Shown: positions 3,086 to 34,579, counted from the first letter of the stretch. The stretch is 35,582 nucleotides of DNA from Planctomycetota bacterium (GCA_027063065.1 JAMOSO010000040.1:1-35582), one strand, 5' to 3'. Notes: generated by a model from the letters alone, not told the origin. Made by a program: numbers and translations.

Positions 3086-5104
3086 TTATAAATTAATTAA
3101 CAATTCTAATTGTTTTTCAAATTTACTTGTAAATGTTTTTGTATCACAAATGCTAGATTGTTTAAAGCGATTTCTTAAATCAATACCAGAGTTGCGAATA
3201 TAATCTAAATCAGCCACCTTAGCTTTTAATTTTACAATAAAATCATCTTTATCAGAGCATATACAATCTGACATTTGCATTGCGGTTAATAAGCTAGAAC
3301 CAACCCTACTAGCATGAGTGTTTCCCTGTACACTAATAACAGGTGTACCCATATATAATGCTTCACACGTGGTGGTAGTTCCGTTGTAAGGATATGTGTC
3401 AATTGCTATGTCTATTTTATTATAATAGTCTAAGCCGTTATATATTCCATCTTGCCAACCTACACACTTAACACGGCTGATATCTATACCTTTATTTTGC
3501 ATTCTATTTAAAAATTGTTTTACTAACCACTGACTTTTAAAAGCTTTTGATTTTAATAATAATGTTGAATCAGGCACAGTATTTAACGCATTTGCAAATA
3601 AATCAAGACTATCATCACCCATTTTTGTAGAGTTATTAAAACAACCTAAAACAACTTTACCTGTTAAAGGTTCTATATTGGGAGGGTTTTCTGCAGGCGT
3701 ATAAGATATAAAAGGTGAGTTTAATTTGATTAATTTTTCTGTATAGACATCATCGCTATTAATATCGGTTATATCATCAACAAAGCGATAATCCATGGCT
3801 GTATTAGCAGAAGTTCCAGGAAAGCCTAAATAATTTATTTGGATAGGTGCAATGCGCTTGGCAAATACTGCTTGACGATTACCTTTTGTATGCCCTGCTA
3901 AATCAAAAGCAAAATCTAATTTTAAATCTCTAGATACTTCAACTAATTCTAAATCGCTTAAATGTATAGAATCTATCCAAACATTTGCATTTTTTTTAAT
4001 AATATCGGTTACTTCATCTATGTCTTGCGTATTTGAAAAACAAATAATTTCAAATTTTTCTTTATTGAGATGGTTTAATAAACCCAATATAAAATATGCA
4101 ACTGAATGTATTTTAAAATCACCAGAAAAGAAACCTATTTTAATTTTTTTACGTTTTGATTTTTTCTTATTTGGTTTATAGTTAAAATCATCACAATTTT
4201 CTTTAAATATTTCTCTACCAACAAGACTTAGCTGTTTATATTTTTCATCATCATAATTATGAGATAAATATAAAATTTCTGAGCCAATATTTTTAGAGTT
4301 TGATTTACAATCCAATGCCTTATTTAACCAATTGTACACCATCTTATGATCACCAAGTAAATTATATATATGACTAATAGCCAACATCAATTTGATATTA
4401 TTCACATCAAAAGTTAATCCCTGCTGTGCCATTTCCATAGCTTTTTCATAGTTAAATAACGACAAATAACAATTTGTGATATTTAAATAACATATTGGAT
4501 TTTGAGATTCAATTTCAATGGCTTGTTTTAGATATTGTAACGCTTGCTCTTCTTTGTGTTGCTTTATTAAAACATTACCTAAATTATTTAGAGCTTGAAC
4601 GCTTGGTTTAATTGCAATGGCTTTTAAAAAGGCTTCTTCAGCTAATAAATTTTCATTAGTTTTAGTATAAATATTACCTAAATTAAAATGAACACCTGGA
4701 TTTTCTGGTCTTAATTTAACACATTTTTTGTAGCACTCTTTTGCTTTTGCAAATCTACCGCTGTCTTCGGCAACTAAACCTAATCCATTGATGGCTTTAA
4801 AAAAATTTGGTTGTAACCTATGAGCTTTAACATATAGGCGATAGGCCGCTTTATTATCACCAGAACTACGCAAAACACTGGCGTAATTGCATAAAATATC
4901 ATGATTGTTTGGACTTCTAAAATGGGCTTTTTCTAAATGCATTAATGAAGAGCTAATATTATTTAATGTAAAATAAATAACTCCCATTAAATGGTTAGCA
5001 TCCACAGATGATGGATTAATTTCTAATTCTTTTTTTAATAATTCTTGTGCAGTCGTCAAATCACCTGCCGTATACACTCGTAATGCTTCTTCTATATTAG
5101 ACAT
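3086..5104 (-). CDS. TPR-GT41 protein glycosyltransferase (third of operon)
   Basis: A 672-residue protein: about seven TPR repeats (residues 1-270), a short linker, a basic segment near 310-322, then a GT41 catalytic domain (about 318-672). GT41 enzymes (O-GlcNAc transferase, SPINDLY) transfer a nucleotide-sugar to Ser/Thr of proteins; the TPR superhelix selects the substrate. H333 in SGDFKIH and K494 in NNSTKMG match the conserved catalytic/donor residues, and PYNGTTTTCEAL follows near 572-583. Its core motif is LGFPGTSANTAMDY, closer to classical bacterial SPINDLY-family proteins than the YPNTTG shared by the other five GT41 domains here, so it is the outlier. The ATG overlaps the preceding gene's end by 8 nt and has an AGAG site upstream. 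Donor and target are unknown. Confidence 0.9.
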   Translation of the reverse strand: MSNIEEALRVYTAGDLTTAQELLKKELEINPSSVDANHLMGVIYFTLNNISSSLMHLEKAHFRSPNNHDILCNYASVLRSSGDNKAAYRLYVKAHRLQPNFFKAINGLGLVAEDSGRFAKAKECYKKCVKLRPENPGVHFNLGNIYTKTNENLLAEEAFLKAIAIKPSVQALNNLGNVLIKQHKEEQALQYLKQAIEIESQNPICYLNITNCYLSLFNYEKAMEMAQQGLTFDVNNIKLMLAISHIYNLLGDHKMVYNWLNKALDCKSNSKNIGSEILYLSHNYDDEKYKQLSLVGREIFKENCDDFNYKPNKKKSKRKKIKIGFFSGDFKIHSVAYFILGLLNHLNKEKFEIICFSNTQDIDEVTDIIKKNANVWIDSIHLSDLELVEVSRDLKLDFAFDLAGHTKGNRQAVFAKRIAPIQINYLGFPGTSANTAMDYRFVDDITDINSDDVYTEKLIKLNSPFISYTPAENPPNIEPLTGKVVLGCFNNSTKMGDDSLDLFANALNTVPDSTLLLKSKAFKSQWLVKQFLNRMQNKGIDISRVKCVGWQDGIYNGLDYYNKIDIAIDTYPYNGTTTTCEALYMGTPVISVQGNTHASRVGSSLLTAMQMSDCICSDKDDFIVKLKAKVADLDYIRNSGIDLRNRFKQSSICDTKTFTSKFEKQLELLINL

Positions 5105-7004
5105 AAGTTTCTCTAATTAAATTAATAAAATTTTGTGAAAATTGCTTCTCGTCGCATAATGTTGATTGTAACATTTGTTGACGCATTTGCATTTTATATT
5201 TTGTATTGATTTTATCTTTAGAACAAGCCAAATCTACAGCACGGTTTATATATTCACTAGTGTTGTTACAAATGAATTCTGGCAAACCAACTGCTTGCAA
5301 AATAGTTGCCCCTACCCTATTGGCGTGGACATTGCCACATATTGATAAACTTGGTACTCCCATCGCTAATGCTTCACAGGTTGTTGTTGTTCCATTATAT
5401 GGCCAAGTATCTAAAGCTAAATTTATCTGATTATAACTTAAAAGATGATCGTTTAACGTTTTAGTAGGCGATAATAATACAATAGATGATTTTTCTACTC
5501 CATATTGTGTAAATTTATTTAATAAGTTTTGTTTATATTTTAACGATTTGCAAGCCCAATTTTTAATAATCAAACGCGCATTAGTACATAGTTTTAAAAT
5601 CTCTGACCAAACTTTAACAACCTCATCAGTTATTTTTAACGCATTATTAAACGAACCAAAATTAAAAACATCTTCATTTGTACATTGTATATCTGGTAAA
5701 TTTTCATACGGTCTAAAACATAAAAAACAATTAGGGAGTTTAATTAATTTTTCTACACTCAAGCTATTTTTAGTATCAGAAATATCATCTACAATTCTAT
5801 AATCAATTGCAGATAAACCAGTTGTATTTGGATATGCCAAATATGTATATTGTTTTTTGGCAGGACGCATAGCCATAACACCTAGCCTTGATACACCAGT
5901 ATGTCCCGAAATATCAATTAGTACATCTAAATTATCGGCATAAATTCTATTAGCTAATTGGTGTTGATTCATATTGGCACAATTACACCAATAATGCGTT
6001 GCTTTTTTATGTTTTAATGTGTAAGTATCAACAATGTTATTTGTATAATAAGTATATATTTCAAATTCATTATTTACATTAGCTATTGACCTCAATCCTT
6101 CAAAAAGTGGCAAAGTAAAAAAACTGCAAGAATGCCGTCTAAAATCAGCTCCCATAAAACCTATTTTTAAAATTTTATTGTCGATAAATTTAAAATTTGG
6201 ATTAATTTTAGGTGCTATAAGATTGGCTTGCTTATGCAAATCAAAAACATCAGATGGGTTGTTATTAAAATAATTTTGTAATAATAAAAACGGTGAATAA
6301 GTACCTAATGTTAGTTGAATATTTTTTGCTCGCACAGCATATTTTAAAGCCTGATGTAAATCACCCATATCCATAGATATTTCAGTTAATGATATTAAAC
6401 TTTCTACCATAGTATTATCTAACGATAATGCTTGATTAAAATTTTTAATAGCTTCGTCTAATTTATGTTGTGCTTTTGCTAAAATGCCAAGATTATGTAA
6501 AGCTGACGCTTTAGTATCAGCATAGCAACACGCTTTTTTAAAATCCAGATACGCCAATGAAATTTTATCTTGTTGACGATATAATTCTCCGCGATTTAAA
6601 TAAGCCCACGCAAAATGATCATCTAAAAATATTGCCTTACTAAAGTATTTTAAGGCTTTATTTACTTTATTTAAATCGTTATATGCATTAGCTAAATTAT
6701 AAAAACCTGGAGCCCACTTTGGCGCTAATTTAATTATTTTTAAATAAATTGGTAGTGCTTTTGACATACCATCAATATTGGCTATTACATTTGCAACATC
6801 ACTTAATAATAAATAATTAACATTTGGCATATCTAGCAATTTATAAGCATTTTTTTTAGCTAAAGCATAATTATTTTGTTCACTAGCAAGTTTTATTAAT
6901 AAATGTATATTTTCAAGTCGCTCTGGTTCACGTTGCAATAATGCTATTGCACCTCTTATCCTGCCTTCATTTATTAATTGGGTAATTTCTGATGATATTG
7001 GCAT
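5097..7004 (-). CDS. TPR-GT41 protein glycosyltransferase (second of operon)
   Basis: A 635-residue protein with about six TPRs (residues 1-235) and a GT41 domain (about 277-635). Key residues are visible: H291 in GADFRRH, the lysine in FNNALKIT and PYNGTTTTCEAL. One variation is YLAYPNTTG where most relatives have WLGYPNTTG. I prefer ATG 7004, two bases after the previous gene's TAA, over a TTG at 7019 inside that gene; neither has a strong ribosome binding site, so translation is probably coupled. TPR and catalytic parts align closely with the gene just upstream (for example NLANAY and WAYLNRG in both), marking a tandem duplication. The donor sugar and targets cannot be inferred. Confidence 0.9.
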   Translation of the reverse strand: MPISSEITQLINEGRIRGAIALLQREPERLENIHLLIKLASEQNNYALAKKNAYKLLDMPNVNYLLLSDVANVIANIDGMSKALPIYLKIIKLAPKWAPGFYNLANAYNDLNKVNKALKYFSKAIFLDDHFAWAYLNRGELYRQQDKISLAYLDFKKACCYADTKASALHNLGILAKAQHKLDEAIKNFNQALSLDNTMVESLISLTEISMDMGDLHQALKYAVRAKNIQLTLGTYSPFLLLQNYFNNNPSDVFDLHKQANLIAPKINPNFKFIDNKILKIGFMGADFRRHSCSFFTLPLFEGLRSIANVNNEFEIYTYYTNNIVDTYTLKHKKATHYWCNCANMNQHQLANRIYADNLDVLIDISGHTGVSRLGVMAMRPAKKQYTYLAYPNTTGLSAIDYRIVDDISDTKNSLSVEKLIKLPNCFLCFRPYENLPDIQCTNEDVFNFGSFNNALKITDEVVKVWSEILKLCTNARLIIKNWACKSLKYKQNLLNKFTQYGVEKSSIVLLSPTKTLNDHLLSYNQINLALDTWPYNGTTTTCEALAMGVPSLSICGNVHANRVGATILQAVGLPEFICNNTSEYINRAVDLACSKDKINTKYKMQMRQQMLQSTLCDEKQFSQNFINLIRETYV

Positions 7005-7006
7005 TA

Positions 7007-9118
7007 TTACTTTACGCAAGCCACACAGTGCTTTAAAAAATCATCAGCAAATTGTTTTTCATTGCAAAGACTTGAGTTTGCCATTTTGTCACGCAATTTA
7101 TTACGAATTGTAGATAAATAATCTTGTCGATTATAATATTCAATAGCCTTATTAATATAGTCATTAAGATTGTCGGCAATAAATTCGTTTAAACCAATAC
7201 TATTTAAAATAGAGGCACTAACCCTGCCTGCATGGCGGTTACCATAAAAACATAAAGTTGGAACGCCCATCCAAATTGCTTCGCAAGTTGTGGTTGTGCC
7301 ATTATATATAAAAGTATCCAATGCTAAATCTACTTCAGCATAAATATTTAAATGTGATTCAATATCAATAGTTCTATTTTTAAAAATAAGCCGTTGCTTA
7401 TCAATCCCAAAGTTTGCAAAATTATTTATAATTCTCTGACGATAGTCCATTGATTCGCAAGCAGAATTTTTTAACAATAATGACGCATTGGGACATAAAT
7501 TTAATATTTTAGCCCAAGCTTGTATAACATCATCGCCTATCTTTAATGAATTATTAAAAGAACCAAAATAAAAATTAGATTTCTGTCTTAACTTAATATC
7601 TGGTGCTACACTAGGCGGTCGATAACATAAAAATATATTGGGCATATATAATAATTTTTCAGAATAAAAATTTTGGGCATCGGATGTTTCAGAAACTTTA
7701 TCTGTAATTCTATAATCAATTTGATTTATACCAGTAGTGTTTGGATAACCAAGCCAAGTCATTTGTACTTTAGCAGGTCGGTACGCAAAGACTCTCAGTC
7801 TATTGCCACCTGTTAAACCAGACAAATCAATAAGGCAATCAATTTTATCATTAGCAATAATTTGTGCTAATGCTTCATCATTTAAACTATCACACTGACG
7901 CCAAACATCAGCAGTATTTTTGATGTTGTGGGTTATTTGATCATCTATTATATTGTTACTGTATAAGTAAAGTTTGCAAATATCTTTGTCTAAATTTTCA
8001 AATAATGGCAAAGAAAAATAACTACACGAATGTGAACAAAAATCAGCCGATATAAATCCTAAATGTAATTTTTTGTTTTTATTAATTGTAAGATGTAAAG
8101 GCTTAATATCCCTCAACCAATAATTGATTTGCAAAGTTTTATTAAACAATTGCATAGAAGAATATTTAGAATCATAATTTAAATTCATAATCATAGCACA
8201 AAAAATTTCTAATCTTTTGTCTAATTCAAATGCCTTGTTAAAATTTATATTTGCAAGATTTTGTTCGCCTAATTTAGTGGCAATATCTGCTAAGCCTAAA
8301 TATGCCCCGCAAATATTAGCAGATATCTTTAAACAAGTTTTAAAATATTTTATAGCCTTATCATATATACGCGAATCTAAATACAATGTTGCTAATGCCA
8401 TCAAATATCTAATATTATTAGGTTCTAGTTGCACGGCATTTAATAAATGTTGTTCTGCAGCTGCTAAATTGTTTTGTCTAATTAATATCCCAGCAATACT
8501 AAACCACGCAATAGCCCGTTTAGGATATAAATCTAAGGCTTCTCGATAATAAGCTAATGCCAATTGCCAGTTTTCTTGTGCTTGAGCTAACTCTCCCATC
8601 GCTAAAATTGATTCCCATTTTATATCTGAAAAGCTCATTGCTGTTTTAAAATCTATCTCTGCCAGTTGATACTTGCCAGCAGATTTATATGCCTGCCCAC
8701 GGTTAAGATATGCCCAATAAAAATCTTTATCCAATTGTATTGCTATATTGTAATGTTTAATAGCATTATCAATATTATTTGTATACGCATTAGCTAAATT
8801 GTAATGTCCAATAGCCCAATCTGGTTTAATTTGTACAACTTTTTGATAAATAGATACAGCTTGTTTATTATATGCTTTAGATAATAAAAAATTGCCAACA
8901 TCGGTATAAAAACCTATGTCTTTTATGTTAGCATCATCATATTTAATACAATAATCTAAAACTTCTTTTGTTTTACCTAAGTCCATACATAAAATACACG
9001 CCAATTTCTGCATATCACAGGATTTGAAATCTGGATGATTGCGCAATATTCCAAGTGCGGCACGTTGGCGGCCTTGTTGTCGCATCTGTGCAATACGCTC
9101 AGCAAGGCTCTCTGACAT
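7007..9118 (-). CDS. TPR-GT41 protein glycosyltransferase (first of operon)
   Basis: A 703-residue cytoplasmic protein with about eight TPRs (residues 1-305), a linker and a GT41 domain (about 348-703). H363 in SADFCSH, the lysine in FNNSLKIG and IYNGTTTTCEAI are conserved. The usual glycine-histidine of the DLSGH motif is DLSGL here; human OGT has Tyr at this place, so activity need not be lost. The ATG overlaps the stop of pyrC in a TAATG junction, with GGAG about ten bases upstream, so it should be co-translated with pyrC. It is a close paralogue of the next gene. Soluble protein-modifying enzyme by family; the sugar donor is not shown by anything in the window. Confidence 0.9.
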   Translation of the reverse strand: MSESLAERIAQMRQQGRQRAALGILRNHPDFKSCDMQKLACILCMDLGKTKEVLDYCIKYDDANIKDIGFYTDVGNFLLSKAYNKQAVSIYQKVVQIKPDWAIGHYNLANAYTNNIDNAIKHYNIAIQLDKDFYWAYLNRGQAYKSAGKYQLAEIDFKTAMSFSDIKWESILAMGELAQAQENWQLALAYYREALDLYPKRAIAWFSIAGILIRQNNLAAAEQHLLNAVQLEPNNIRYLMALATLYLDSRIYDKAIKYFKTCLKISANICGAYLGLADIATKLGEQNLANINFNKAFELDKRLEIFCAMIMNLNYDSKYSSMQLFNKTLQINYWLRDIKPLHLTINKNKKLHLGFISADFCSHSCSYFSLPLFENLDKDICKLYLYSNNIIDDQITHNIKNTADVWRQCDSLNDEALAQIIANDKIDCLIDLSGLTGGNRLRVFAYRPAKVQMTWLGYPNTTGINQIDYRITDKVSETSDAQNFYSEKLLYMPNIFLCYRPPSVAPDIKLRQKSNFYFGSFNNSLKIGDDVIQAWAKILNLCPNASLLLKNSACESMDYRQRIINNFANFGIDKQRLIFKNRTIDIESHLNIYAEVDLALDTFIYNGTTTTCEAIWMGVPTLCFYGNRHAGRVSASILNSIGLNEFIADNLNDYINKAIEYYNRQDYLSTIRNKLRDKMANSSLCNEKQFADDFLKHCVACVK

Positions 9119-10205: not shown

Positions 10206-11075
10206 ATGAATAGCAAACCAAGACAATTTAATGCTCGTAAAATCATAATAATTTTTATGTTTTCTGTGCCGTGCTTTTTTGTTTTAGCAATAGCAGGTCT
10301 GTATTTTATTGTTATGGAAGAACACATCCAAAGCCATGGTATGGTTGTTTTGCAAAATCAAAAAAAGATTTTTTCGCCAGAAGATGGTATTATTAGCAGT
10401 TTAAATAATTGTTATAAAATAGATATTAATCGCCCATTAATAGTTATAACCAATCGATATTTATCTAATAAGTTTAATGAGTATTCTAATCAACTAAAAA
10501 ATTATCAGATACAATTAAAAATAGCTAAACTTTCTTTAAAATCGTATCTAAATAAAAAGCAGATTAAAAATAATATAGATATACAAAAACAAAATTTAAA
10601 GATATCTCAATTAAAAAATAATGTAGCATTTACTAGACAATTACAAAATAATATTTTTAATCGCATTCAAAAATTAAGTATTAACTGTCCAAAAAATATT
10701 ATATCACTATCAAAATTAAATATAGGTCAAAAAATTAAACAAGGTGATTTAATAGGTATTTGCGGTAATAAAACAGTTGTAAACATTATTATTGAAGTTA
10801 ATCAAAAATATATTAATAAAATTAAAATAGGTCAACGGATTAGATTTAAATCGAATACTTTTTCAGTTAATAAAAGCTTTAATAATTATTATACTGGTAT
10901 TATTAAAAGTATTGATAATATTGCTAGTATTAATAAAGACAAAAAAATAATTTACCGAGTAACTGCCGATATTGATTTTAATAAAAATTTACCAAACTTG
11001 CCAATAGGCTCTAGCGGTACCGCTTATATTATAATTGGACAACGCTCATTATTGTTGCAATTAATTGGCTACTAA
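10206..11075 (+). CDS. HlyD-like membrane-fusion protein (short)
   Basis: A 289-residue periplasmic adaptor anchored by one N-terminal membrane segment (residues about 12-36). Next come a first half of a lipoyl/barrel-sandwich fold (about 52-84, with FSPEDGIIS), a Lys/Asn/Gln-rich coiled coil (about 85-155), the second half (about 165-195, with IGQKIKQGDLIG) and a beta-barrel region to the end. Such proteins bridge an ABC exporter to the outer membrane. It is shorter than typical type I secretion adaptors (over 400 residues), mainly in the coiled coil. Its TAA is directly followed by the ATG of the first ABC gene. No outer-membrane channel gene is nearby. Sequence similarity is structural rather than strong, so the family call is moderately sure. 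Confidence 0.7.
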   Translation: MNSKPRQFNARKIIIIFMFSVPCFFVLAIAGLYFIVMEEHIQSHGMVVLQNQKKIFSPEDGIISSLNNCYKIDINRPLIVITNRYLSNKFNEYSNQLKNYQIQLKIAKLSLKSYLNKKQIKNNIDIQKQNLKISQLKNNVAFTRQLQNNIFNRIQKLSINCPKNIISLSKLNIGQKIKQGDLIGICGNKTVVNIIIEVNQKYINKIKIGQRIRFKSNTFSVNKSFNNYYTGIIKSIDNIASINKDKKIIYRVTADIDFNKNLPNLPIGSSGTAYIIIGQRSLLLQLIGY

Positions 11076-12803: not shown

Positions 12804-14541
12804 TATAGCAGCTCTTAAAAAAATATTTATGCTAGTTACCAAGCGCCCTTTGGAGTTTTTAATGGCTGCTGGATTGGTAATCGTACTATCTTTAGTAGAG
12901 TTACCTTTACCATTATTTATGGCATTATTAATTGATACTATAATTCCTTCAAATGATACTACTGCTTTGATAACTATTGGAATATTTTTATTTTCAATAC
13001 GTGCTGGAGCATCTGGTTTTCAAGTATTTCAAAATTATTTAGTTGCTAATATGACATCAGCCTTTGCCGCTACAATGCGTCAAAAGATGATTAATAAAAT
13101 GCTTAATTTACCATTTGCTAGATTTATCAATGGCGATGCCAATGGAATGGTCACTAGGTTGACTGTCGATATGGAAAAGGTTGAAAAATTTTCACATGAG
13201 ACAGTTGGTTTTTTGATACGTCCTTGTTTAAGTTTTTTATTTATTTTTACAATTATGTTTGCTTGGAACTCTTTTTTAGCAATGTATTGTTTATTGATAG
13301 TGCCGATAGTTGTTTTTACTACAAAAAGTATTCGTATGAATTTACGTGAAAGCTCTGAACGTCAACGTTGTATTACAGAAGATTTAGAAATAAACGCTGC
13401 CGAAGTTTTTAATTCTATACGCAATATTAAAGCTTTTAATGCACAAAATATTTTTAGCGAAAGAATAGATAAAAATATTAATACTATCAAAAAAGCTGGC
13501 GTTAAATATCAAATTTGGGCTCAACTTTCTAATGAAATAATTAAATTATTGGGAACACTATCTTCTATTGGTTTTATATTTTTTGCAGCTCAGCAGGTAT
13601 TTGATAATAACTTAACTTTGGGAGGATTTATTGCGCTACAAACGATGTCTCAAAGTATACGGTCGCCTATTGCTCAGATAATGTATTTTTTTACTACTAT
13701 GAATTCTAAAAAAGTTGCATTAGAACGTGTGGAATCAGTTATGAATGAGCTACCTGAACAGGCAGAAGATAATTTAAGCACACTTGATTTGCCACTTAAA
13801 GATGGAATTAAGTTTAAAAATGTAATTTTAAATTTTAATAATAACATTAATGTTTTAAATGGAATTAATTTAAATATTAAGCCAAATCAAACTGTGGCTA
13901 TAGTGGGCCCTTCTGGCGCTGGCAAAAGTTCACTTATTAATGTTCTGTTAGGATTACATAAATATACTCAAGGCAGTATAGAATATGACCATCAAGATAT
14001 GCAACAACTAGATATTAAAAATGTACGTGCAAATATTGGAGTGGTCTATCAAGACGCAATATTATTTAACAATACTATTCGTTACAATATGAGTGTTGGC
14101 AATAAGTTTTATAGTGATACAAAAATTATCAACGCACTTAAAACTGCCAATGCTTGGGATTTTGTAAGTAAGTTGCCAAATAAATTAGATACTATTATAG
14201 GTGTAAATGGTATTAAATTATCTGGCGGACAAAAACAGCGCTTATCAATTGCTAGAGCAATTTTAGCAGAGCCTGCTATTTTGATTTTAGATGAAGCCAC
14301 AAGTTCTTTGGATTCTCATAGTGAAAATTTAATTAAAATAGCGCTCGATAAAATACTAAAACAACGCACCTCAATAGTAATTGCACATAGATTATCTACC
14401 ATATTGAATGCCGATCGTATATTAGTTATGGAGCAAGGTAAAATAATTGCAGAAGGAACTCACAATCAATTAATCAAAAAATGCAGTGGGCTTTACTATC
14501 ACTTATATACAACACAAACAGATGGATTATTAAAGGCTTAA
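12796..14541 (+). CDS. ABC exporter half-transporter (membrane + ATPase), second
   Basis: A 581-residue fused ABC exporter paralogous to the gene before it. The membrane domain spans about residues 15-305 and the ATPase domain about 340-581, with Walker A GPSGAGKSS (K377), YQDAILF, LSGGQKQR, Walker B ILILDE and IVIAHRLST. Both halves keep the catalytic glutamate, unlike many heterodimeric exporters in which one site is degenerate. I place the start at ATG 12796, which overlaps the previous stop by 8 bases and follows a GGACGG site; a longer frame extends upstream from 12751 inside the previous gene. The stop abuts the convergent regulator's stop with no gap and no terminator. Confidence 0.92.
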   Translation: MSNIAALKKIFMLVTKRPLEFLMAAGLVIVLSLVELPLPLFMALLIDTIIPSNDTTALITIGIFLFSIRAGASGFQVFQNYLVANMTSAFAATMRQKMINKMLNLPFARFINGDANGMVTRLTVDMEKVEKFSHETVGFLIRPCLSFLFIFTIMFAWNSFLAMYCLLIVPIVVFTTKSIRMNLRESSERQRCITEDLEINAAEVFNSIRNIKAFNAQNIFSERIDKNINTIKKAGVKYQIWAQLSNEIIKLLGTLSSIGFIFFAAQQVFDNNLTLGGFIALQTMSQSIRSPIAQIMYFFTTMNSKKVALERVESVMNELPEQAEDNLSTLDLPLKDGIKFKNVILNFNNNINVLNGINLNIKPNQTVAIVGPSGAGKSSLINVLLGLHKYTQGSIEYDHQDMQQLDIKNVRANIGVVYQDAILFNNTIRYNMSVGNKFYSDTKIINALKTANAWDFVSKLPNKLDTIIGVNGIKLSGGQKQRLSIARAILAEPAILILDEATSSLDSHSENLIKIALDKILKQRTSIVIAHRLSTILNADRILVMEQGKIIAEGTHNQLIKKCSGLYYHLYTTQTDGLLKA

Positions 14542-21540: not shown

Positions 21541-22008
21541 ATGGCCAATAGAAATGCAATTTTTACAACAAATTTGGGTACTTTCACAATAGAACTTTTT
21601 GAAGATAAAGCACCTGCAACTACAAAAAACTTTATTGATTTGGTGGAAAAAGGTTATTATGACGAATTGATTTTTCACCGCATCATAGATGGTTTTATGA
21701 TTCAAGGTGGTTGTCCAGATGGTACTGGAATGGGCGGTCCAGGATATCAAATTGATTGTGAATTTCATGATGATCTAAAACACTCAGACGAAGGCATTTT
21801 GTCTATGGCAAATGCGGGACCAAATACAGGTGGAAGTCAATTTTTTATCACTTTAGGAGCTACGCCTCACTTAGATGGTCGTCATGCTGTTTTTGGTAAA
21901 GTAATAGATGGAATGCAAGTCGTTCGTGAAATTGGCTCTGTACAAACAGGAATCTCAGATCGTCCTGTAAAAGATGTAATTATAGAAACTATCACTATTA
22001 GCGAATAA
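21541..22008 (+). CDS. Cyclophilin-type peptidyl-prolyl cis-trans isomerase
   Basis: A 155-residue cytoplasmic cyclophilin that speeds proline isomerisation during folding. The active-site signature [13 protein letters not shown] holds the catalytic arginine, and [16 protein letters not shown] and [12 protein letters not shown] complete the pocket. There is no signal peptide, so it is the PpiB-like cytoplasmic type. An AAGGAG site precedes the ATG. Only six bases separate it from the giant triple glycosyltransferase gene, which lacks its own ribosome binding site. The two are therefore likely co-transcribed and coupled; a folding helper for the giant protein is an attractive inference. Confidence 0.95.
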
Positions 22009-22014
22009 GTATTT

Positions 22015-25000
22015 GTGCAAAAGCACATTAATAAATTATTAAAAAACGGTGATTACACCCAAGCAGAAAAAAAATTATCTGTATATATAAAACAGAATCC
22101 TTTATCTGCTTGGGGTTTACATCTGCTTGGTCAGTTATACGCTCAGACTGGTCGGCAAAGAGAAGCTATTTCATTATTAGAAACGGCAGTAAAAATTCAG
22201 CCAAGCGCACAACATTTAGCTAGTTTAGGAATATGTCTATACCTAAATCAAAAATATTTTAAGTCAATTAAAGTATTTAATAAAGCACTACAAAAAAAGC
22301 AAGATTCTGATATTTTTAATAATCGCGGTATGTGTTTTGCCGCATTATGCAAATATAAACCTGCTTTGAGATCTTATAATTTTGCTTTAAAATACAATCC
22401 AAATAATTTAGATGCTTTGTATAATTCTGCAAAAGCCTGTGATATTTTAGGTCATTACCAACAGGCAATAGATACATATCAACGCATTATCAATTCAGAT
22501 TTAAAAAATACAAATAATCCCAATTATTATAAAGCACACAACAATTTAGCTGTTCAATTAGAGGCGATGGGATATAGCGCCGAGGCATTAAACCATTATC
22601 GAACAGCTCTAAAAATCAATCCATACGAATTTACCAGTCGCAGTAATTTTTTATTAAGTTTAAATCGACCTGATAATATCTCACAAGCTGAAATATTAAA
22701 AGAATCACTAATCTTTAATGAATTAACCCACAAAAATAATTTTAAATTGAATAATGATAAAAATAAAAAATTAAAAGTTGGCTTTGTATCTGGAGATTTT
22801 ACTAAGCACGTAGTAGCTAATTTTTTCTTACCATTAATAGAAAATCTAAAACCTGATGATATGGAAATATATTGCTATTATAATTTATCAACTAGCACAG
22901 GCTACACAACACATATAGCTAAATTATGCAAACAGTTTCATCACATCGCACATCTTAATACCGAAGAGCTTGTTGCATTTATACGCACACATAACTTAGA
23001 TGTTATTTTTGATTTAAGTGGACATGCAAATTATAATCGCTTGCCCGCTTTTGCCCAACGCCTTGCGCCTATTCAAATAAACTGGTTGGGATATCCAAAT
23101 ACAACTGGTGTAAAAAATATGGACTACAGATTAGTTGATGCAATAACTGATCCCATAGAAAACAACAAAGATTGTACAGAAACCTTATTGCGTTTAGAGC
23201 CTTGTTTTTTATGCTATAGACCATTAGAAACTACTCCACAGATACAACATCAATTACAAAAACATATACGCTTTGGTTCTTTTTTAAACTCTGAAAAAAT
23301 AAATAATACAACAGTTAAACTTTGGTCAGATATTTTAAAATCCGTTCCCAATTCAAAACTTATTTTAAAATCAATGAGATTTGATAGGCCTGGATTAATT
23401 AATCGTTTACAAAATATGTTTGTATCAAATGGTATTGATAAAATACGTCTTGAATTTTTAGAAAGATCATCTAGCGCACAAGAACATCTTCAAGCATATA
23501 AACATATTGATATTGCCCTGGACACAATGCCATATAATGGCACAACTACAACATGTGAAGCCTTATATATGGGTATACCTGTTATTGCATTATTGGGAAA
23601 TGTTCACCGTAGTAGAGTTAGTGCCTCTATATTAAATGCTATTGCTCATCCAGAGTTAATTGCAAAAACTACACAAGAATATATTTATATAGCCCGTGAT
23701 TTAGCCAATGACAAAAACCGTTTAAATCAGTTACATAATAACTTGCGACAAGATTTATTAGATAGTCAATTATGTGATGCAAAAGCATTTGCAAAAAACT
23801 TTACCCATTTATTGCAACAATTTCAATCCACACCAATTTTAAATCACTTTAAAATTGGTACACAATTATATATGCAAGGCAATTACCAAGATGCTATGCA
23901 AGCATTTGATTTAGCCTTACAAAAAAATTCTCAGGATATTAATAGCTTAAATAATCGTGGTTTAACATTTGAGGCTCTGGGCAAATATCGCAATGCATTA
24001 AGCTCGTATAGAATGGCATTAAAAATAAACCCAAACTTTTTAGATGCTAAATATAATCTTGCACGAAGTCTTGAACAACTTAGGCGATTTGACGAATCTA
24101 TGCAAACATATCAAGATATAATCAAAACCAATCCAAACTACGCTGTTGCGCATAACGATTTAGCCAGACTATTTGAGTCAATTGGCAAACATAAAAAAGC
24201 ATTTAAACATTACAAACAAGCAATTAAATTAGACTCTAATAATCATCTCTATAAAAGTAATTTATTACTTAGCAGTAATTGGAGTGATTTGATTTCACAA
24301 TCAGAAATTTTACAATTAACTAAAAAATTAGCTCCACAATCAAAAGCTAAAAAAATAAAAACTGTTGTAGATATCTTAAAACCAATCAAAATTGGTTTTG
24401 TGTCTGGAGATTTCACATTTCATGCAGTGGCGATTTTTTTTATGCCACTATTAGAAAATTTAGACAAATCAAAGATTCAAGCATATTGCTATTACAATTA
24501 TAATAAAATCAATGACTATACAAAAATCATTGCAAATGCGTCCTACGAATTTAAACAAATTGATAGTCTTAGTGATGATGAGGCCATAAATTTAATAAGA
24601 AACGACAAGTTAGATATTATTTTTGATTTAAGTGGCTACACTAGCTTTAATCGTTTAAATCTTTTTGCTAAGCGTCTTGCTCCTATTCAAATCAACTGGT
24701 TGGGATATCCCAATACTACGGGTCTAAAAACTATCGACTACAGATTAATTGATTATATTACAGATCCACTTGAGCATAATAACCACTGTTCTGAAAAATT
24801 ATTAAGAATGCCATCTTGCTTTTTGACATACCAACCTAAATATGACTTCCCTGATATCGAATACACAAAAAGTGATCATATACGCTTTGGATGTTTTTCA
24901 AATTCACAAAAAATCAATCCAACAACTGTTCGTTTATGGGTTGCTGTTTTAAAAGCTGTTGATAATTCTAAACTATATTTAAAATCTATTTGGTTTGATA

Positions 25001-27318
25001 GGCCTGAAATTGTTAATTATTTAAAAGAATTATTTTTGGCAGAGAATCTTGATGAAACAAGGCTTATAATATTATCGCGTTCCAAATCAAGCTTTGAACA
25101 TTTACAGATGTATAATCAAATAGATATTGCCTTAGATACTATCCCCTACAATGGAACAACTACTACCTGTGAAGCTTTGTATATGGGAGTGCCGGTTATT
25201 GCTTTATTAGGAAATGTTCACCGTGCTAGAGTTAGTGCGTCTTTGGTTTCAGCATGCAATCATCCAGAACTAATTGCTAAAACTACAAGTGAATATATAA
25301 ACATTGCTAAAAATCTTGCTAATAATCAAAGCCTATTACAAAAATTACATAACAATTTACGCAATGACGTAAATAATTCTGCCTTAGGAAACGCTAAAAC
25401 ATTTGCCGGAGATTGGTCAAAACTGATGCTATCTTTAGTAGTAAAAAAAGATAAGCCTGTGCAACTAAATCAAATAGAAAATTTATTACGTAACAATAAA
25501 CTAGAGCAAGCCATTACCCAATTACAAACTTATCTTGCTTATAATCCAAATGATGCCAAACAATTTAAAAACTTAGGTGTTGCCTTGCACCTTACTAGAC
25601 AATTTAACTTAGCGGTTGATGCCTTTAAAAAAGCTCTTAGTATCAACCCAAATGACTATGACGCCAAACGCAAACTAGGTTTAAGCCTAGATGATTTAGG
25701 CAGACACAGAGCGGCCATAAGTTGTTACAATCAAGTAATAGATTCTTTAAAAAACAAATCAAATAATTTAACACAAGAAGATAAAATAATATTAGCAGAT
25801 GCATTTTTTAGTTTAGCATCAACTTATCAACAACTGGATAAAACAGATTTAAGTATAGAAATGTACTTAAATAGTCTTAAAATTAATTGTCAACAATTTC
25901 ATGTTCATAATAATTTAGCCACCTATTACCATAGTAATGGTCAGTACAAATTAGCATTAAAGCATTTTAAGCAAGCTATAAAAATACAACCTGAAAATTC
26001 AAATTTATATAATAATCTAGCTATGACTTACCAAGCTTTAATGCAAACCAGTAAAGCAAAAGAGTTATATTTAAAAGCTATTAAACAAGACATAGATAAT
26101 CCTAATTTATATTCTGGAATCTTATTATTACTAACCAGACTTGATGATATAAAGCCAAATGAAATTTTTGATTTAAGCAAGCAATATAACAATGCTGCCA
26201 TTAAGCAAATGCAAAAATATCCCTTGGCAAATTTTGCTAAACAAAAACGTAGTGACAATAAACTGCGTATCGGCTTTATATCACCAGATTTTAAAACCCA
26301 TTCGGTAACATATTTTTTAACTTCATTTTTAAAATATCTTCCACTGCATAATGTCGAGGTTTATTGTTATTACTGTGATACTAAAAATGATGTTGTAACC
26401 CAAGAAATTGCTAAATCAGTGAAAAAGTTTTATTTTGTAGCTAAAAACACCGAAAGAGAAATAGTAAATTTAGCTCGGCAAGATTTATTAGATATCGCCA
26501 TAGACCTTGCTGGGCATACGGGCAATAATATTTTATCAGCATTTGCATACCGTATGGCTCCTATACAATGTTCGTGGTTGGGATATCCAAATACAACAGG
26601 GCTCAATACAATGGATTATCGCATTATTGATAGTTATTCTGATATAGATACAAATATAGATATGTATAGTGAAACCCTAATAGCATTACCCAAACATTTT
26701 TTATGTTACCAACCACCTAAAGCTACTATAGATATAAACTGGCAATTAAATCAAACTATCAGATTTGGCTCTTTTAATAATATTGAAAAAATCACCCCCA
26801 CCTGTATTAAACTATGGAGTGATATATTAAAGGCAATACCAAATTCCACATTGACACTTAAAGCCAAACAAACCTCATCACCAGATGTAGTACAATGGAT
26901 ATATACCCAATTTAATCAATATGATATCAAAAAAAATCGTATAATTTGTTTAGCCGTTGCCAAAAACAATAGCCAACATTTAAATTGTTATAATTCAATA
27001 GATATAGCTTTGGATACATTTCCATACCATGGCACCACAACCACTATAGAGGCACTATACATGGGTGTACCCACAATAAGTTTAATTGGTAATACCCATG
27101 CGTCTAGGGTTGGTTATTCGATACTTTCTGGTGTTGATTTACAAAATTTATGTGCTAAAAATAAGCAAGAATATATAAATATTGCCACTGACTTGGCAAA
27201 TAACCAAGATGTGTTACAAAATTTGCATAAAACATTACGTCAAACGTTATTGGCAAGTGACTTATGCAATGGTCAAGATTTTGCTGAGGATTTTGCTAAA
27301 ACACTTAATTCAATGTCT
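22015..27318 (+). repeat. Three-fold internal module duplication in the giant gene
   Basis: Repeat units at about 22015-23820, 23821-25440 and 25441-27318 each encode one TPR array plus one GT41 domain. Units 1 and 2 share long near-identical stretches around the GTTTT loop and are the younger duplication; unit 3 is more distant. Confidence 0.85.
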
Positions 27319-27321
27319 TGA
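22015..27321 (+). CDS. Giant protein with three TPR-GT41 glycosyltransferase modules
   Basis: A 1768-residue cytoplasmic protein made of three complete modules: TPRs about 1-225 with GT41 252-602; TPRs about 608-755 with GT41 783-1142; TPRs about 1150-1390 with GT41 1416-1768. Each catalytic domain keeps the DFxxH histidine (H265, H803, H1429), the donor-site lysine (K428, K966, K1592), LGYPNTTG and a GTTTT loop (PYNGTTTTCEAL twice, PYHGTTTTIEAL in module 3). Modules 1 and 2 are the most alike, with YMGxPVIALLGNVHR in both. GT41 enzymes glycosylate Ser/Thr of proteins; GTTTT resembles plant SPINDLY, so GDP-fucose as well as UDP-GlcNAc is a possible donor. Start is GTG six bases after the cyclophilin stop with no clear ribosome binding site. 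Known relatives have one catalytic domain, so this fusion is unusual. Confidence 0.92.
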   Translation: MQKHINKLLKNGDYTQAEKKLSVYIKQNPLSAWGLHLLGQLYAQTGRQREAISLLETAVKIQPSAQHLASLGICLYLNQKYFKSIKVFNKALQKKQDSDIFNNRGMCFAALCKYKPALRSYNFALKYNPNNLDALYNSAKACDILGHYQQAIDTYQRIINSDLKNTNNPNYYKAHNNLAVQLEAMGYSAEALNHYRTALKINPYEFTSRSNFLLSLNRPDNISQAEILKESLIFNELTHKNNFKLNNDKNKKLKVGFVSGDFTKHVVANFFLPLIENLKPDDMEIYCYYNLSTSTGYTTHIAKLCKQFHHIAHLNTEELVAFIRTHNLDVIFDLSGHANYNRLPAFAQRLAPIQINWLGYPNTTGVKNMDYRLVDAITDPIENNKDCTETLLRLEPCFLCYRPLETTPQIQHQLQKHIRFGSFLNSEKINNTTVKLWSDILKSVPNSKLILKSMRFDRPGLINRLQNMFVSNGIDKIRLEFLERSSSAQEHLQAYKHIDIALDTMPYNGTTTTCEALYMGIPVIALLGNVHRSRVSASILNAIAHPELIAKTTQEYIYIARDLANDKNRLNQLHNNLRQDLLDSQLCDAKAFAKNFTHLLQQFQSTPILNHFKIGTQLYMQGNYQDAMQAFDLALQKNSQDINSLNNRGLTFEALGKYRNALSSYRMALKINPNFLDAKYNLARSLEQLRRFDESMQTYQDIIKTNPNYAVAHNDLARLFESIGKHKKAFKHYKQAIKLDSNNHLYKSNLLLSSNWSDLISQSEILQLTKKLAPQSKAKKIKTVVDILKPIKIGFVSGDFTFHAVAIFFMPLLENLDKSKIQAYCYYNYNKINDYTKIIANASYEFKQIDSLSDDEAINLIRNDKLDIIFDLSGYTSFNRLNLFAKRLAPIQINWLGYPNTTGLKTIDYRLIDYITDPLEHNNHCSEKLLRMPSCFLTYQPKYDFPDIEYTKSDHIRFGCFSNSQKINPTTVRLWVAVLKAVDNSKLYLKSIWFDRPEIVNYLKELFLAENLDETRLIILSRSKSSFEHLQMYNQIDIALDTIPYNGTTTTCEALYMGVPVIALLGNVHRARVSASLVSACNHPELIAKTTSEYINIAKNLANNQSLLQKLHNNLRNDVNNSALGNAKTFAGDWSKLMLSLVVKKDKPVQLNQIENLLRNNKLEQAITQLQTYLAYNPNDAKQFKNLGVALHLTRQFNLAVDAFKKALSINPNDYDAKRKLGLSLDDLGRHRAAISCYNQVIDSLKNKSNNLTQEDKIILADAFFSLASTYQQLDKTDLSIEMYLNSLKINCQQFHVHNNLATYYHSNGQYKLALKHFKQAIKIQPENSNLYNNLAMTYQALMQTSKAKELYLKAIKQDIDNPNLYSGILLLLTRLDDIKPNEIFDLSKQYNNAAIKQMQKYPLANFAKQKRSDNKLRIGFISPDFKTHSVTYFLTSFLKYLPLHNVEVYCYYCDTKNDVVTQEIAKSVKKFYFVAKNTEREIVNLARQDLLDIAIDLAGHTGNNILSAFAYRMAPIQCSWLGYPNTTGLNTMDYRIIDSYSDIDTNIDMYSETLIALPKHFLCYQPPKATIDINWQLNQTIRFGSFNNIEKITPTCIKLWSDILKAIPNSTLTLKAKQTSSPDVVQWIYTQFNQYDIKKNRIICLAVAKNNSQHLNCYNSIDIALDTFPYHGTTTTIEALYMGVPTISLIGNTHASRVGYSILSGVDLQNLCAKNKQEYINIATDLANNQDVLQNLHKTLRQTLLASDLCNGQDFAEDFAKTLNSMS

Positions 27322-27386: not shown

Positions 27387-27851
27387 ATGAGTGAAAACAC
27401 ATCAAAAAATGAAGAAATCCAAACAGAACAACCTCAAGAAGAGGTATTTCCTTGGGTTGAAGAACGCAACTTTGACGAGGAAATATATTTAGGTTATTGG
27501 GAAAATAAACCCATTATAATTAATGTTGATTTTGGTTCTTGTTTTCTAAGCGAAGGACAAGGTTTAAGTGTTGGTGATGGTGAATTTTTTGCAACTGTAA
27601 AAGATGGTAAATGGGATATCAAAGAAGCATCATCATTTAAAAAAGGCATTCTTCCTGCTAACTCTATATTAGAGTGGGATAGTAGCGACAAATACCACAA
27701 AGCATTAGGCGTTATCAGTGATGAAGAAAAAGAAACCCAACGTATGATGGAAATGATTCAAGCACAAATGGCAAATATGCCTAAAAACGATGATGATAAT
27801 GACGCTGATGAAGCTGAGACAGCCGAAAATGCCGATGGTAAAAAGGAATAA
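27387..27851 (+). CDS. Small acidic protein of unknown function
   Basis: A 154-residue protein that I do not recognise. Residues about 20-115 look like a compact folded domain (PWVEERNFDEEIYLGYWENK, then GDGEFFATVKDG). The last 30 residues are a low-complexity acidic tail rich in Asp, Glu and Ala, with a Met/Gln-rich helix before it. No signal peptide or membrane segment is seen, so it should be cytoplasmic. A GGAG site at 27377-27380 supports the ATG. It lies between the giant glycosyltransferase and a response regulator with 65- and 46-base gaps; no functional link is shown. Confidence 0.7.
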   Translation: MSENTSKNEEIQTEQPQEEVFPWVEERNFDEEIYLGYWENKPIIINVDFGSCFLSEGQGLSVGDGEFFATVKDGKWDIKEASSFKKGILPANSILEWDSSDKYHKALGVISDEEKETQRMMEMIQAQMANMPKNDDDNDADEAETAENADGKKE

Positions 27852-30314: not shown

Positions 30315-31427
30315 TTATAATTCTAAACTTAATTGTTTTTGTTGCCATGATTCTTGTCGCATTTTTGCTAAAATCAAACCGAGCTTTGTCTTGGTTGGTT
30401 CAACTTTAGCTAAAGGCTCTAACACACGCCAAAGATTACGCCTGCCAGCTATAAAACTCCATGCTGGCCAACGTTCTCGTTGCAATAGAATATCTTGCAA
30501 AGCACTGTCTGGCAAGTGTTGATTACCTTTAAAATTATTATTTTTTTGTTCTATGTATGCTTTAACTATTTCACGCAATGCACCACGTAACTGCGACCAT
30601 GTTCCTGCCGCTTGTCCATGTAATTTTCTTGCCTCTGGAGCCAATACTACTAAACGTCCCATAAGATGTAAAACTTGTGACCAAATACCAACATCTATCC
30701 ATTGCTGTTTTTTTTGTCTTAATATGCCAACTTGTATTGGTTTATACCATTGACCATTTACAGCCCAATATAATAAATGCTCCGACAAATAACTGGGTAG
30801 ATTATCGACTTCACCACTGGTAGCAACAAGCATTTTTGCAGATGTTGCTAATGCTTTATCATGCAAATAATCTTGTATTTTTAATTTGGCAATATCTTGA
30901 AATTGTGGAATGGGTGATAATAAATAAGCCTCAATTATTTTTAAAGCTGTTAAAACAGGTTTGGATGTATGGTTTATTTCATCAAATAATACATCGTATT
31001 GCTTAATGGAATCTCTTAAACTTTCAAGCCATATATTCTTTGGCTTTTTGACACCAATATGCCATATTTCCACTAAAGTACGGGGGTTTTCTGTAAAAAA
31101 TAAATGTACTCCCTCTTGTGCGTACCGCTCAAATGCAGATTTTGGTATAACCATATCAGCCCTTGCAATTAGTGATTCTTGATAATGAGTTTCCTGAATA
31201 CATTGATTATCAAAACCAAGCAAAGCAATAGCATCCTTAGTTTTTTTAGGATAACGGTGTACTAATTGGGTTGGTAAATCTTGTATTTGAAAATTAACTC
31301 GTGGCACTGCCACAATTTTTTTGCTAGTAACAAAGTTAGTGTCTTCAACAAAACTAAGCTCATGCAAAACCACAGCACAAATAACAACTATGCCTAGAAC
31401 TAAAAATAAAAAAACTATATCTACCAT
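30315..31427 (-). CDS. Membrane-anchored protein of unknown function
   Basis: A 370-residue protein that I do not recognise. Residues about 4-25 are one strongly hydrophobic segment (VFLFLVLGIVVICAVVL), likely an N-terminal membrane anchor. The rest is soluble and rich in Leu, Gln, Trp and basic residues, with helical character and the Trp-rich stretch RERWPAWSFIAGRRNLW near the end. ATG 31427 is preferred; a GTG at 31463 would put extra residues before the anchor. A TATAAT ends seven bases before this ATG and no ribosome binding site is seen. It lies directly upstream of leuA. Confidence 0.7.
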   Translation of the reverse strand: MVDIVFLFLVLGIVVICAVVLHELSFVEDTNFVTSKKIVAVPRVNFQIQDLPTQLVHRYPKKTKDAIALLGFDNQCIQETHYQESLIARADMVIPKSAFERYAQEGVHLFFTENPRTLVEIWHIGVKKPKNIWLESLRDSIKQYDVLFDEINHTSKPVLTALKIIEAYLLSPIPQFQDIAKLKIQDYLHDKALATSAKMLVATSGEVDNLPSYLSEHLLYWAVNGQWYKPIQVGILRQKKQQWIDVGIWSQVLHLMGRLVVLAPEARKLHGQAAGTWSQLRGALREIVKAYIEQKNNNFKGNQHLPDSALQDILLQRERWPAWSFIAGRRNLWRVLEPLAKVEPTKTKLGLILAKMRQESWQQKQLSLEL

Positions 31428-31434
31428 GGTTAAA

Positions 31435-31440
31435 ATTATA
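31435..31440 (-). promoter_or_regulatory. Candidate -10 element of a leaderless promoter
   Basis: TATAAT on the - strand (31440-31435) ends seven bases before the ATG at 31427, so transcription would start at the codon. The best -35 (TTGTGC) is at a 19-base spacing, which is weak. Confidence 0.45.
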
Positions 31441-31514
31441 ACAAATTTAAAATATGATTGCACAAAAATTTAAACTTAACTTTTCAAACTAAATACCCTC
31501 TATTGGGGATACAG

Positions 31515-32773: not shown

Positions 32774-34579
32774 ATGAAAAAACTTATCACAATAATTACC
32801 ACTGCTATTATGGGATTATGCACAACCTCAACAACTATGGCGCAAGTTAAATTACCCGAAGGCGTAATAGTTCACTTTGCAACTGCTCCACTGGCAGATA
32901 TTACAACTGACATTGAAAATTTAGCTATAGCTAGTACTAAAGGTACACCTGCACAAATGTTTGCAATGCCAGGTATGCTAAGAATGCAAATGCCTAGCAC
33001 TACTGGACTACCTCCAGCAATGGTTGATTTTTCTAAACCGTTGCATGCTTTTATAAGTGAATTACAACCAAATCACACATCATTTTCTGCTGCACTTATA
33101 CCAATTAAAGATTTTGATAATCAAATTAAATTAATTGGTGGCTTAGGTTTTAATAAATTAGAACATGGTATTTATCAAAAACAAAACTCTAATAAAGTAT
33201 TTTTAGGATTTTATAAAAAACAATTTGCTATTTTTGCAAACAGCCAAATTAATGTTGCATTTGGCTTACAAGTTTTAAAACGCTGCAAAACATTAACTAA
33301 TCCCAAAAAAGGTATCACTATTGATATTGATGTTGCAAAAATAATTGCAAAACACGGCTCTAAATTAGAAGAAAAAATAAACTCTTTTAGTCCTGACAAA
33401 TTATTTAAAAACAATAAATCTGCTGACATCATCAATGTTTTATACCCTATTATTAAGGGCGCTGGCGATAGTGCAATGTTAGCTTTAAAAGAACTAGATA
33501 ACATAAAAATACATTATCTCCCATCTTCTGAAGGGCTAAAAATTATTAATATTGCCACACCAAAACACAATACCAATCTTGCCAATATTAATAATGCTTT
33601 AGCAAGTTTAAATGGCGTACCACAAGCTTTTAAATATCTACCAAAACAATCTGCTGCTGTTGGTTATATAAATTATAATGAAAACTTATTAAAGACAATT
33701 GAACCTTTAATTAAGCCTATAATAGATGGGTTAGATAAATCAACTGGTACTAATCTAAATATTACAAAGTTATTTAAACAACTGCAAAAAATTAGTGGTT
33801 CAAATCAATGTTACGGTATATATACAGATAAGAAAACTCAAAATCAAATCACCGTAGCTTATGTTAAAAACAAAGATAGCAAACAATATAGACAATTAAT
33901 ATCTGAAACTATGCCCAAGTTAAACACATGGTTAAAAAACTTATTATCCAACGGAGCATTACCAATATCGGTTGATGTATTGTGGAAAACAAATGCTGGT
34001 AAAATTAGCAGTCAAAAATATGACACAATCGATGTTAATTTAAAATCAACCGACCCATCTGCAAATGAACAAATAACTAAAGCCTTAAAAAACAGCTCTA
34101 CACACAGCCAATTTGTCTTTTTAAAAGACAGCATAATCTCTACTTCAATTACAGGCAAAGGTCAATTAAGTAATGCTACAAAAAATGCCATACAAAATTA
34201 TAAAAATAAAACTAACGGTATTGGTTCTAAAGCAAATATAAATAGCATTACCCAACAATACCCATCTGCATTTATGGTAAATATTATCTATCCTTTAGAT
34301 TTAATAAAATCTGTTTTAATTCAACAAGCAAAGCAAAATGCAAATTCTATGCAATATTTACCATTGATTTTAGAAACAGCCAAGCAATTGCCAAGCTCTA
34401 GCACTTCTTTTGATATAGCGGCAAGCTCTGATAAAAAATCACTTTCACTTGAGGTAAACTTACCTGCTCGTGCTATAAATGAAGTAATCATTGCTGGTAT
34501 GCAAGCATTTACAAAAGCACAAATGCAACAACAAATGACAAAAAAAACTATTTTACCAAAGCCTCCAACCATAAAATAG
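32774..34579 (+). CDS. Secreted protein of unknown function
   Basis: A 601-residue exported protein. A signal peptide is clear: KK, a hydrophobic core and a likely cut after TTMA, near residue 23. The mature part is Lys/Asn/Ser-rich with alternating strands and helices and no transmembrane segment, so it should be periplasmic or surface-associated. The layout (a PLADI-like start, repeated half-domains near residues 30-260 and 290-560) loosely recalls DUF3352-type proteins, but this is not a firm match. A Met/Gln-rich tail precedes the C-terminus. A GGAGG site precedes the ATG, and a strong terminator follows. Serine/threonine-rich segments make it a conceivable, untested glycosylation target. 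Confidence 0.75.
   Translation: MKKLITIITTAIMGLCTTSTTMAQVKLPEGVIVHFATAPLADITTDIENLAIASTKGTPAQMFAMPGMLRMQMPSTTGLPPAMVDFSKPLHAFISELQPNHTSFSAALIPIKDFDNQIKLIGGLGFNKLEHGIYQKQNSNKVFLGFYKKQFAIFANSQINVAFGLQVLKRCKTLTNPKKGITIDIDVAKIIAKHGSKLEEKINSFSPDKLFKNNKSADIINVLYPIIKGAGDSAMLALKELDNIKIHYLPSSEGLKIINIATPKHNTNLANINNALASLNGVPQAFKYLPKQSAAVGYINYNENLLKTIEPLIKPIIDGLDKSTGTNLNITKLFKQLQKISGSNQCYGIYTDKKTQNQITVAYVKNKDSKQYRQLISETMPKLNTWLKNLLSNGALPISVDVLWKTNAGKISSQKYDTIDVNLKSTDPSANEQITKALKNSSTHSQFVFLKDSIISTSITGKGQLSNATKNAIQNYKNKTNGIGSKANINSITQQYPSAFMVNIIYPLDLIKSVLIQQAKQNANSMQYLPLILETAKQLPSSSTSFDIAASSDKKSLSLEVNLPARAINEVIIAGMQAFTKAQMQQQMTKKTILPKPPTIK

Follow-up and report, generated by a model that had tools for sequence, protein, structure and literature searches.

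A planctomycetal protein with three TPR-GT41 modules in one reading frame: a putative SPINDLY-like, multi-site O-glycosyltransferase with relatives of up to 11 modules

Introduction

Research on the enzymes that attach O-GlcNAc or O-fucose to proteins has dealt with chains carrying a single catalytic engine, which must reach hundreds of sites one after another. AtSPY, a plant protein O-fucosyltransferase of family GT41, has one module with a superhelix of 11 TPRs (PMC10027727); its residues H495 and K665 are essential (PMC9715652), N661 mutants are near normal and S496A is weakened (PMC9715652, PMC10027727). In SPY, guanosine is read by K689 and A731 and fucose by Y744, in OGT, uridine is read by L866 and R904 and GlcNAc by C917, and prokaryotic members of an "intermediate" clan show mixed donor patterns (PMC10027727). 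Bacterial single-module TPR-GT41 proteins such as TtOGT (5djs) and XcOGT (2jlb), many of which are annotated "tetratricopeptide repeat protein", carry one module per chain, and in these two the O-GlcNAc activity toward bacterial proteins was slight at best (PMC9715652). FlmG of Caulobacter, a cytoplasmic protein of TPR and GT-B parts that is not named GT41 in its description, O-glycosylates several flagellins from a single module with a pseudaminic acid donor, and its TPR domain, which binds the flagellins, is indispensable to this modification (PMC7591256).

Here we describe a gene of a Planctomycetota bacterium whose product (the triple protein) contains three such modules. Like AtSPY, it combines TPR superhelices with GT41 domains and lacks the intervening domain of the human enzyme, and the two share the catalytic and guanosine/fucose residues H495, K665, K689 and Y744; unlike AtSPY, it has three modules with 4–6 TPRs found in each, and S496 and N661 are altered in modules 1 and 2. 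It resembles the TtOGT/XcOGT type in fold, unit size and conserved columns, and human and metazoan O-GlcNAc transferase in the combination of TPR and GT41, but it lacks both the L866/R904/C917 signature and the intervening domain of the latter. The premise of a preliminary description, that known OGT and SPINDLY proteins have one module each, holds for the characterized proteins, from which the fusion of several GT41 modules in one chain departs.

Results

One reading frame with three complete modules

The window, i.e., the whole analyzed stretch of 35,582 bases, is the entire contig C40 of a draft genome (2.13 Mb, 71 contigs, 90% complete). The proposal of the preliminary description, one 1768-residue chain with three complete TPR-GT41 modules, is borne out by the frame, the Pfam search and the TPR scan. 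The poly-GT41 gene is a single open frame (22015..27321, + strand) with a GTG start and no interrupting stop. The domain search suggested earlier returned PF13844 (Glyco_transf_41) at 513 bits (E 9.8e-154, cut-off 25), split into six half-domain stretches that constitute three full domains, with both halves above the cut-off in each module, as well as many TPR matches. A TPR consensus scan, controlled by shuffling, located 5, 4 and 6 TPR units ahead of domains 1, 2 and 3, respectively (Table 1), the first and third of the six units in array 3 being weak and under the shuffle threshold. The Asn-ladder position is taken by Asn in the last three TPRs of array 1, and likewise in two of four TPRs in array 2 and four of six in array 3. 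The TPR arrays are 29–42% identical among modules, as compared with 45–58% for the catalytic domains. NF049992, representing the HMW1C/NGT branch of N-glucosyltransferases, is absent from the best 25 of the 29 NCBIfam families that match the triple protein, and it scores at most 41 bits (cut-off 1000) against the GT41 paralogues of this genome.

Table 1. Positions of the poly-GT41 gene, its parts, and related genes (window coordinates unless a record is named)
Feature	Position	Strand	Basis or remarks
Single-module TPR-GT41 paralogue, H728 replaced by G	3086..5104	-	Pfam and alignment
Single-module TPR-GT41 paralogue	5097..7019	-	Pfam
Single-module TPR-GT41 paralogue	7007..9118	-	Pfam
Cyclophilin (peptidyl-prolyl isomerase)-like gene	21541..22008	+	Translation; family assigned by eye
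Poly-GT41 gene	22015..27321	+	One frame, 1768 aa, three TPR-GT41 modules
TPR array 1	22108..22629	+	Five units, residues 32-205; consensus scan and Pfam TPR matches
GT41 catalytic domain 1	22750..23817	+	D261, H265, K428, K452, Y507, GTTTT 509-513
TPR array 2	23836..24243	+	Four units, residues 608-743; consensus scan and model helices
GT41 catalytic domain 2	24373..25428	+	D799, H803, K966, K990, Y1045, GTTTT 1047-1051
TPR array 3	25453..26100	+	Six units, residues 1147-1362; consensus scan and model helices
GT41 catalytic domain 3	26242..27309	+	D1425, H1429, K1592, K1616, Y1671, GTTTT 1673-1677
11-module poly-GT41 frame, Desulfonema magnum	NZ_CP061800.1 6110301-6134255	-	Whole-genome search

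Pairwise identities of the catalytic domains are 58, 47 and 45% at the protein level and 64, 56 and 53% at the DNA level, modules 1 and 2 being the 58% pair. Inter-module dS values are 1.5, 2.5 and undefined (saturated), with dN of 0.35–0.54; since dN is well below a near-saturated dS, each copy has apparently been under purifying selection since the duplication. The possibility that the frame is an assembly artefact fusing three genes or a repeat, which the preliminary description had listed among the findings that would overturn it, is raised by the draft state of the genome and by the presence of three single-module paralogues on the same contig. Nevertheless, the longest exact repeat is 23 bp within the frame and 19 bp between it and the remaining contig, the 1768 codons are free of stops, the gene lies internal to the contig, and a like architecture occurs in Desulfonema magnum, a cultured bacterium with a complete genome, leaving an artefact very improbable. 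As judged from the assembly, repeat collapse or misassembly is rejected on the module divergence together with the absence of long exact repeats.

Active-site residues and donor signatures

AtSPY is the best sequence match to the triple protein among solved structures (E 7e-106), and its residue numbering, carried along the alignment (7y4i, 8dtf), is used throughout. As proposed earlier, the DFxxH histidine, the donor-site lysine and the GTTTT loop are present in every module by this alignment: the histidine (H265, H803 and H1429 in modules 1, 2 and 3) corresponds to AtSPY H495 and human OGT H558, the catalytic lysine (K428, K966, K1592) to AtSPY K665, and the loops start at 509, 1047 and 1673. 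Equivalents of D491, H495, K665, H728, Y744, T747 and T748, as well as of E752 and N662, are retained in all three. The S496 position is occupied by V, A and S, and the N661 position by L, S and N, in modules 1, 2 and 3, respectively, and the His of SGH is replaced by Tyr in module 2. Single-module GT41 proteins frequently have V or A at 496 (31/126), and L and S at 661 occur once each among 182 GT41 domains, both in the triple protein. Judged from these residues, all three modules look catalytically competent, and module 3, the closest to AtSPY at S496 and N661, is the most SPY-like by sequence.

The positions of K689, A731 and Y744 read K/A/Y, K/M/Y and K/C/Y in modules 1, 2 and 3, with no Arg. 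Thus, K689 of the guanosine signature is matched in all three modules and A731 by module 1 alone, while the catalytic H495 and K665 and the sugar-site Y744 of the SPY-like clan are common to all. The uridine/GlcNAc signature of OGT/SEC (L866/R904/C917) was not found in any module, and an OGT-type UDP-GlcNAc enzyme is disfavored by the donor site. The combination of Lys689, no Arg904 and Tyr744 points to GDP-fucose rather than UDP-GlcNAc as the probable donor. Genes for Gmd (581 bits, cut-off 415) and for an Fcl that shares 59% identity with the E. coli enzyme over 313 aa are present in the genome, and GDP-fucose is accordingly expected to be produced, although these two enzymes may serve polysaccharide synthesis only.

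Predicted structure

Of the three separate active sites that the preliminary description expected in a predicted structure, those of modules 2 and 3 show no collapse; module 1, although 58% identical to module 2, was modeled at lower confidence. The model of residues 600-1768 (modules 2 and 3) has a mean pLDDT of 91 with a GT41 fold in each, i.e., a GT-B fold and a preceding TPR solenoid. In this predicted model, TPR array 2 with domain 2 superimposes on TtOGT (5djs) with Z 49.9 and rmsd 2.6 Å over 509 residues, and TPR array 3 with domain 3 on SPY bound to GDP-fucose (8dti) with Z 45.0 and rmsd 4.5 Å over 604 residues. The lower confidence of module 1, seen in the model of residues 1-1140, probably stems from a shallow alignment there. 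With pTM of 0.57–0.60, the models do not define the relative placement of modules.

Genome context and links to flagellin

The cyclophilin-like gene lies upstream of the GTG start at a distance of 6 nt and is therefore probably on the same transcript as the poly-GT41 gene. The genome contains five further GT41 genes, three of them consecutive at 3086-9118 (-) of the window. These three amount to a local GT41 expansion within a genome of 2.1 Mb; their ends overlap (5104/5097 and 7019/7007), and a dihydroorotase-like gene adjoins. The region 10206-14541 (+) encodes a short protein of membrane-fusion-like type, unmatched in Pfam and NCBIfam, and then two MsbA-type ABC exporters, possibly an export system near the glycosyltransferases. 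Products of 601 aa at 32774-34579 (+), 382 aa at 30315-31463 (-) and 154 aa at 27387-27851 (+) are without a Pfam match.

Four flagellin genes are present in the genome. On another contig (C50, 195-3684), a single-module GT41 gene and a gene for a flagellin of 487 aa are divergently oriented across 172 bp, likely a flagellin-glycosyltransferase pair; no flagellin gene lies next to the triple gene itself. In a Nitrospirae MAG, a multi-GT41 gene is located ~2.5 kb from a flagellin-like gene. A flagellin match is absent in Desulfonema magnum and two Desulfobacterales MAGs, the genomes with the longest chains, which argues that the architecture serves more than flagellin.

Poly-GT41 proteins in other bacteria

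The preliminary description implied a unique architecture, which did not hold: the search it recommended for further proteins with at least two GT41 domains yielded several, with up to 11 modules, in unrelated bacteria. Among 128 ORFs of the best 80 GT41 loci from named genomes, 10 have at least two GT41 domain matches, and proteins with 2 to 11 modules were found in Desulfobacterales, Geobacteraceae, Nitrospirota, SAR116 and Chromatiaceae. The largest is an 8395-residue frame with 11 GT41 domains in Desulfonema magnum (cultured and filamentous). Six domains are present in proteins of 3750 and 3769 residues from a Pelobacter sp. MAG and a Geobacteraceae MAG, 4 to 6 per protein in MAGs of Desulfobacterales/Desulfobacteraceae, and two in Nitrospirae and Chromatiaceae. 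A SAR116 two-module protein, encoded beside fliD, has modules identical in protein sequence, possibly a very recent duplication or an assembly artefact; because of this identity and a record name suggestive of a single-cell assembly, we give it little weight. In the phylum of the window, 55 of 392 genomes contain GT41, and a multi-domain frame was seen in the window's genome alone (at most five GT41 candidates scored per genome); in the class of Desulfonema, 21 of 117 genomes contain GT41, with a poly-GT41 frame in Desulfonema alone. Among the plasmid matches listed, alignments span about one module's length only. Eight viral contigs (IMG/VR) encode GT41 relatives 35–42% identical to module 1. 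No description of proteins with several GT41 domains, the Desulfonema case included, was found in the open-access papers searched, and poly-GT41 proteins are apparently a rare but recurrent class, undescribed as far as those papers show.

These proteins share with the triple protein the repetition of TPR-GT41 units within one frame; they are not one-to-one orthologous to it, and some mix GDP-type and UDP-type modules or carry degenerate ones. In Desulfonema, ten modules have a K/x/Y donor signature and the last has A/R/Y with the uridine-type Arg, and another relative (G062) combines KLY and ARY in one chain. In the six-module proteins of Geobacteraceae, the GTTTT loop and H728 are lost in modules 3-5, yet these modules are conserved between genera, which suggests that they are non-catalytic or altered and kept by selection, and thus that non-canonical modules can persist.

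The three modules of the window form one clade of their own (support 95/83 in a careful tree of 38 rows; 85% SH-aLRT in a quick tree), with modules 1 and 2 as sisters (support 99), and they group with the single-module GT41 genes of the same genome (90/89), so the triple protein most likely grew within this lineage. Between Desulfonema and two other Desulfobacterales, well-supported pairs by position are seen for modules 1 to 3, and most of the later modules also have partners; in Geobacteraceae, positions 1 and 3 are common to three genomes and all six positions to two. From the separate module clades it follows that poly-GT41 chains arose more than once, their modules then being kept individually, and the position-by-position conservation between genera makes the multiplicity of modules seem selected.

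Discussion

Taken together, these observations are best explained, with a probability of roughly 55%, by a cytoplasmic SPINDLY-like protein O-glycosyltransferase of three TPR-GT41 units, most likely using GDP-fucose, that acts on a multi-site exported acceptor. The explanation draws on the three domains with their TPR arrays and intact residues, the AtSPY match, the donor signature and the presence of Gmd and Fcl, as well as on dN well below dS, the conservation of module positions, the flagellin or FliD neighbors of other GT41 genes, and FlmG, which by analogy would be a fair functional model. What follows on activity, donor and acceptor, on location in the cytoplasm and on the benefit of linkage is inferred. 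Each unit would hold the acceptor polypeptide along a TPR superhelix of its own and pass a single sugar, most likely L-fucose donated by GDP-fucose, to Ser/Thr through the mechanism of SPY and OGT; the three linked units would act on several positions of one long or repetitive exported protein before its export, with flagellin as the leading candidate acceptor. Such multi-site glycosylation is plausible; against the explanation as a whole stand the position of the triple gene away from flagellin, the absence of a flagellin match in the genomes with the longest chains, the changes at S496 and N661 in modules 1 and 2, a donor preference read from signatures that are mixed in prokaryotic members of the "intermediate" clan, and the chance that Gmd and Fcl serve polysaccharide synthesis only.

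The same features may also be read as a division of labor, in which the modules recognize different proteins or sites and are fused for co-expression, with no acceptor common to all three. The TPR arrays are indeed the most divergent parts and unequal in unit number, positions 496 and 661 differ, and four flagellins and five further GT41 genes are at hand; but separate genes would suffice for this, and exist here, and repeated independent fusion suggests that linkage itself matters, so that we regard this reading as possible but doubtful. A reading in which one or two of the modules have little catalytic power and serve mainly as a substrate-binding or dimer scaffold for an active one is unlikely. 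Such a role would fit V and L (module 1) and A and S (module 2) at 496 and 661, the rarity of the two residues at 661, and the Geobacteraceae modules kept across genera in spite of their losses, but the essential H495 and K665 are present in all three modules along with Y744 and T748, and AtSPY mutated at N661 is close to normal (PMC9715652). Residues V and A at 496 are, moreover, common in single-module enzymes.

We know of no sugar acceptors for SPY-like enzymes, and a similar guanosine/small-sugar signature recurs at all three donor sites. Hence the suggestion of the preliminary description that different sugars are added in sequence is disfavored for this protein, and a sequential builder, whose modules would add different sugars or extend the first into a short glycan, is quite improbable here. 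What speaks for it comes from elsewhere, namely the relatives that mix donor types within a chain and the GT41 enzyme ApHMW1C, which makes O-glycosidic glucose-glucose bonds (PMC9715652). For relatives that appear to hold GDP-type and UDP-type modules together, a preference read from their signatures, the addition of different sugars is still a live idea.

Returning to multi-site glycosylation, we tentatively extend it to the class: poly-GT41 proteins could be assembly-line O-glycosyltransferases in which 3-11 TPR-guided sites decorate one exported chain per encounter, with the order of modules selected and with GDP and UDP sites mixed in some. Chains of three, six and eleven conserved engines, repeatedly evolved and kept in order, make processivity or fixed spacing in GT41 testable, and they offer a handle on what the TPR solenoid measures and on how the choice between GDP and UDP donors is mixed in one polypeptide. 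The triple protein also directs attention to the O-fucosylation of proteins in bacteria, a largely uncharacterized process, and poly-GT41 proteins offer natural tools for multi-site protein glycosylation.
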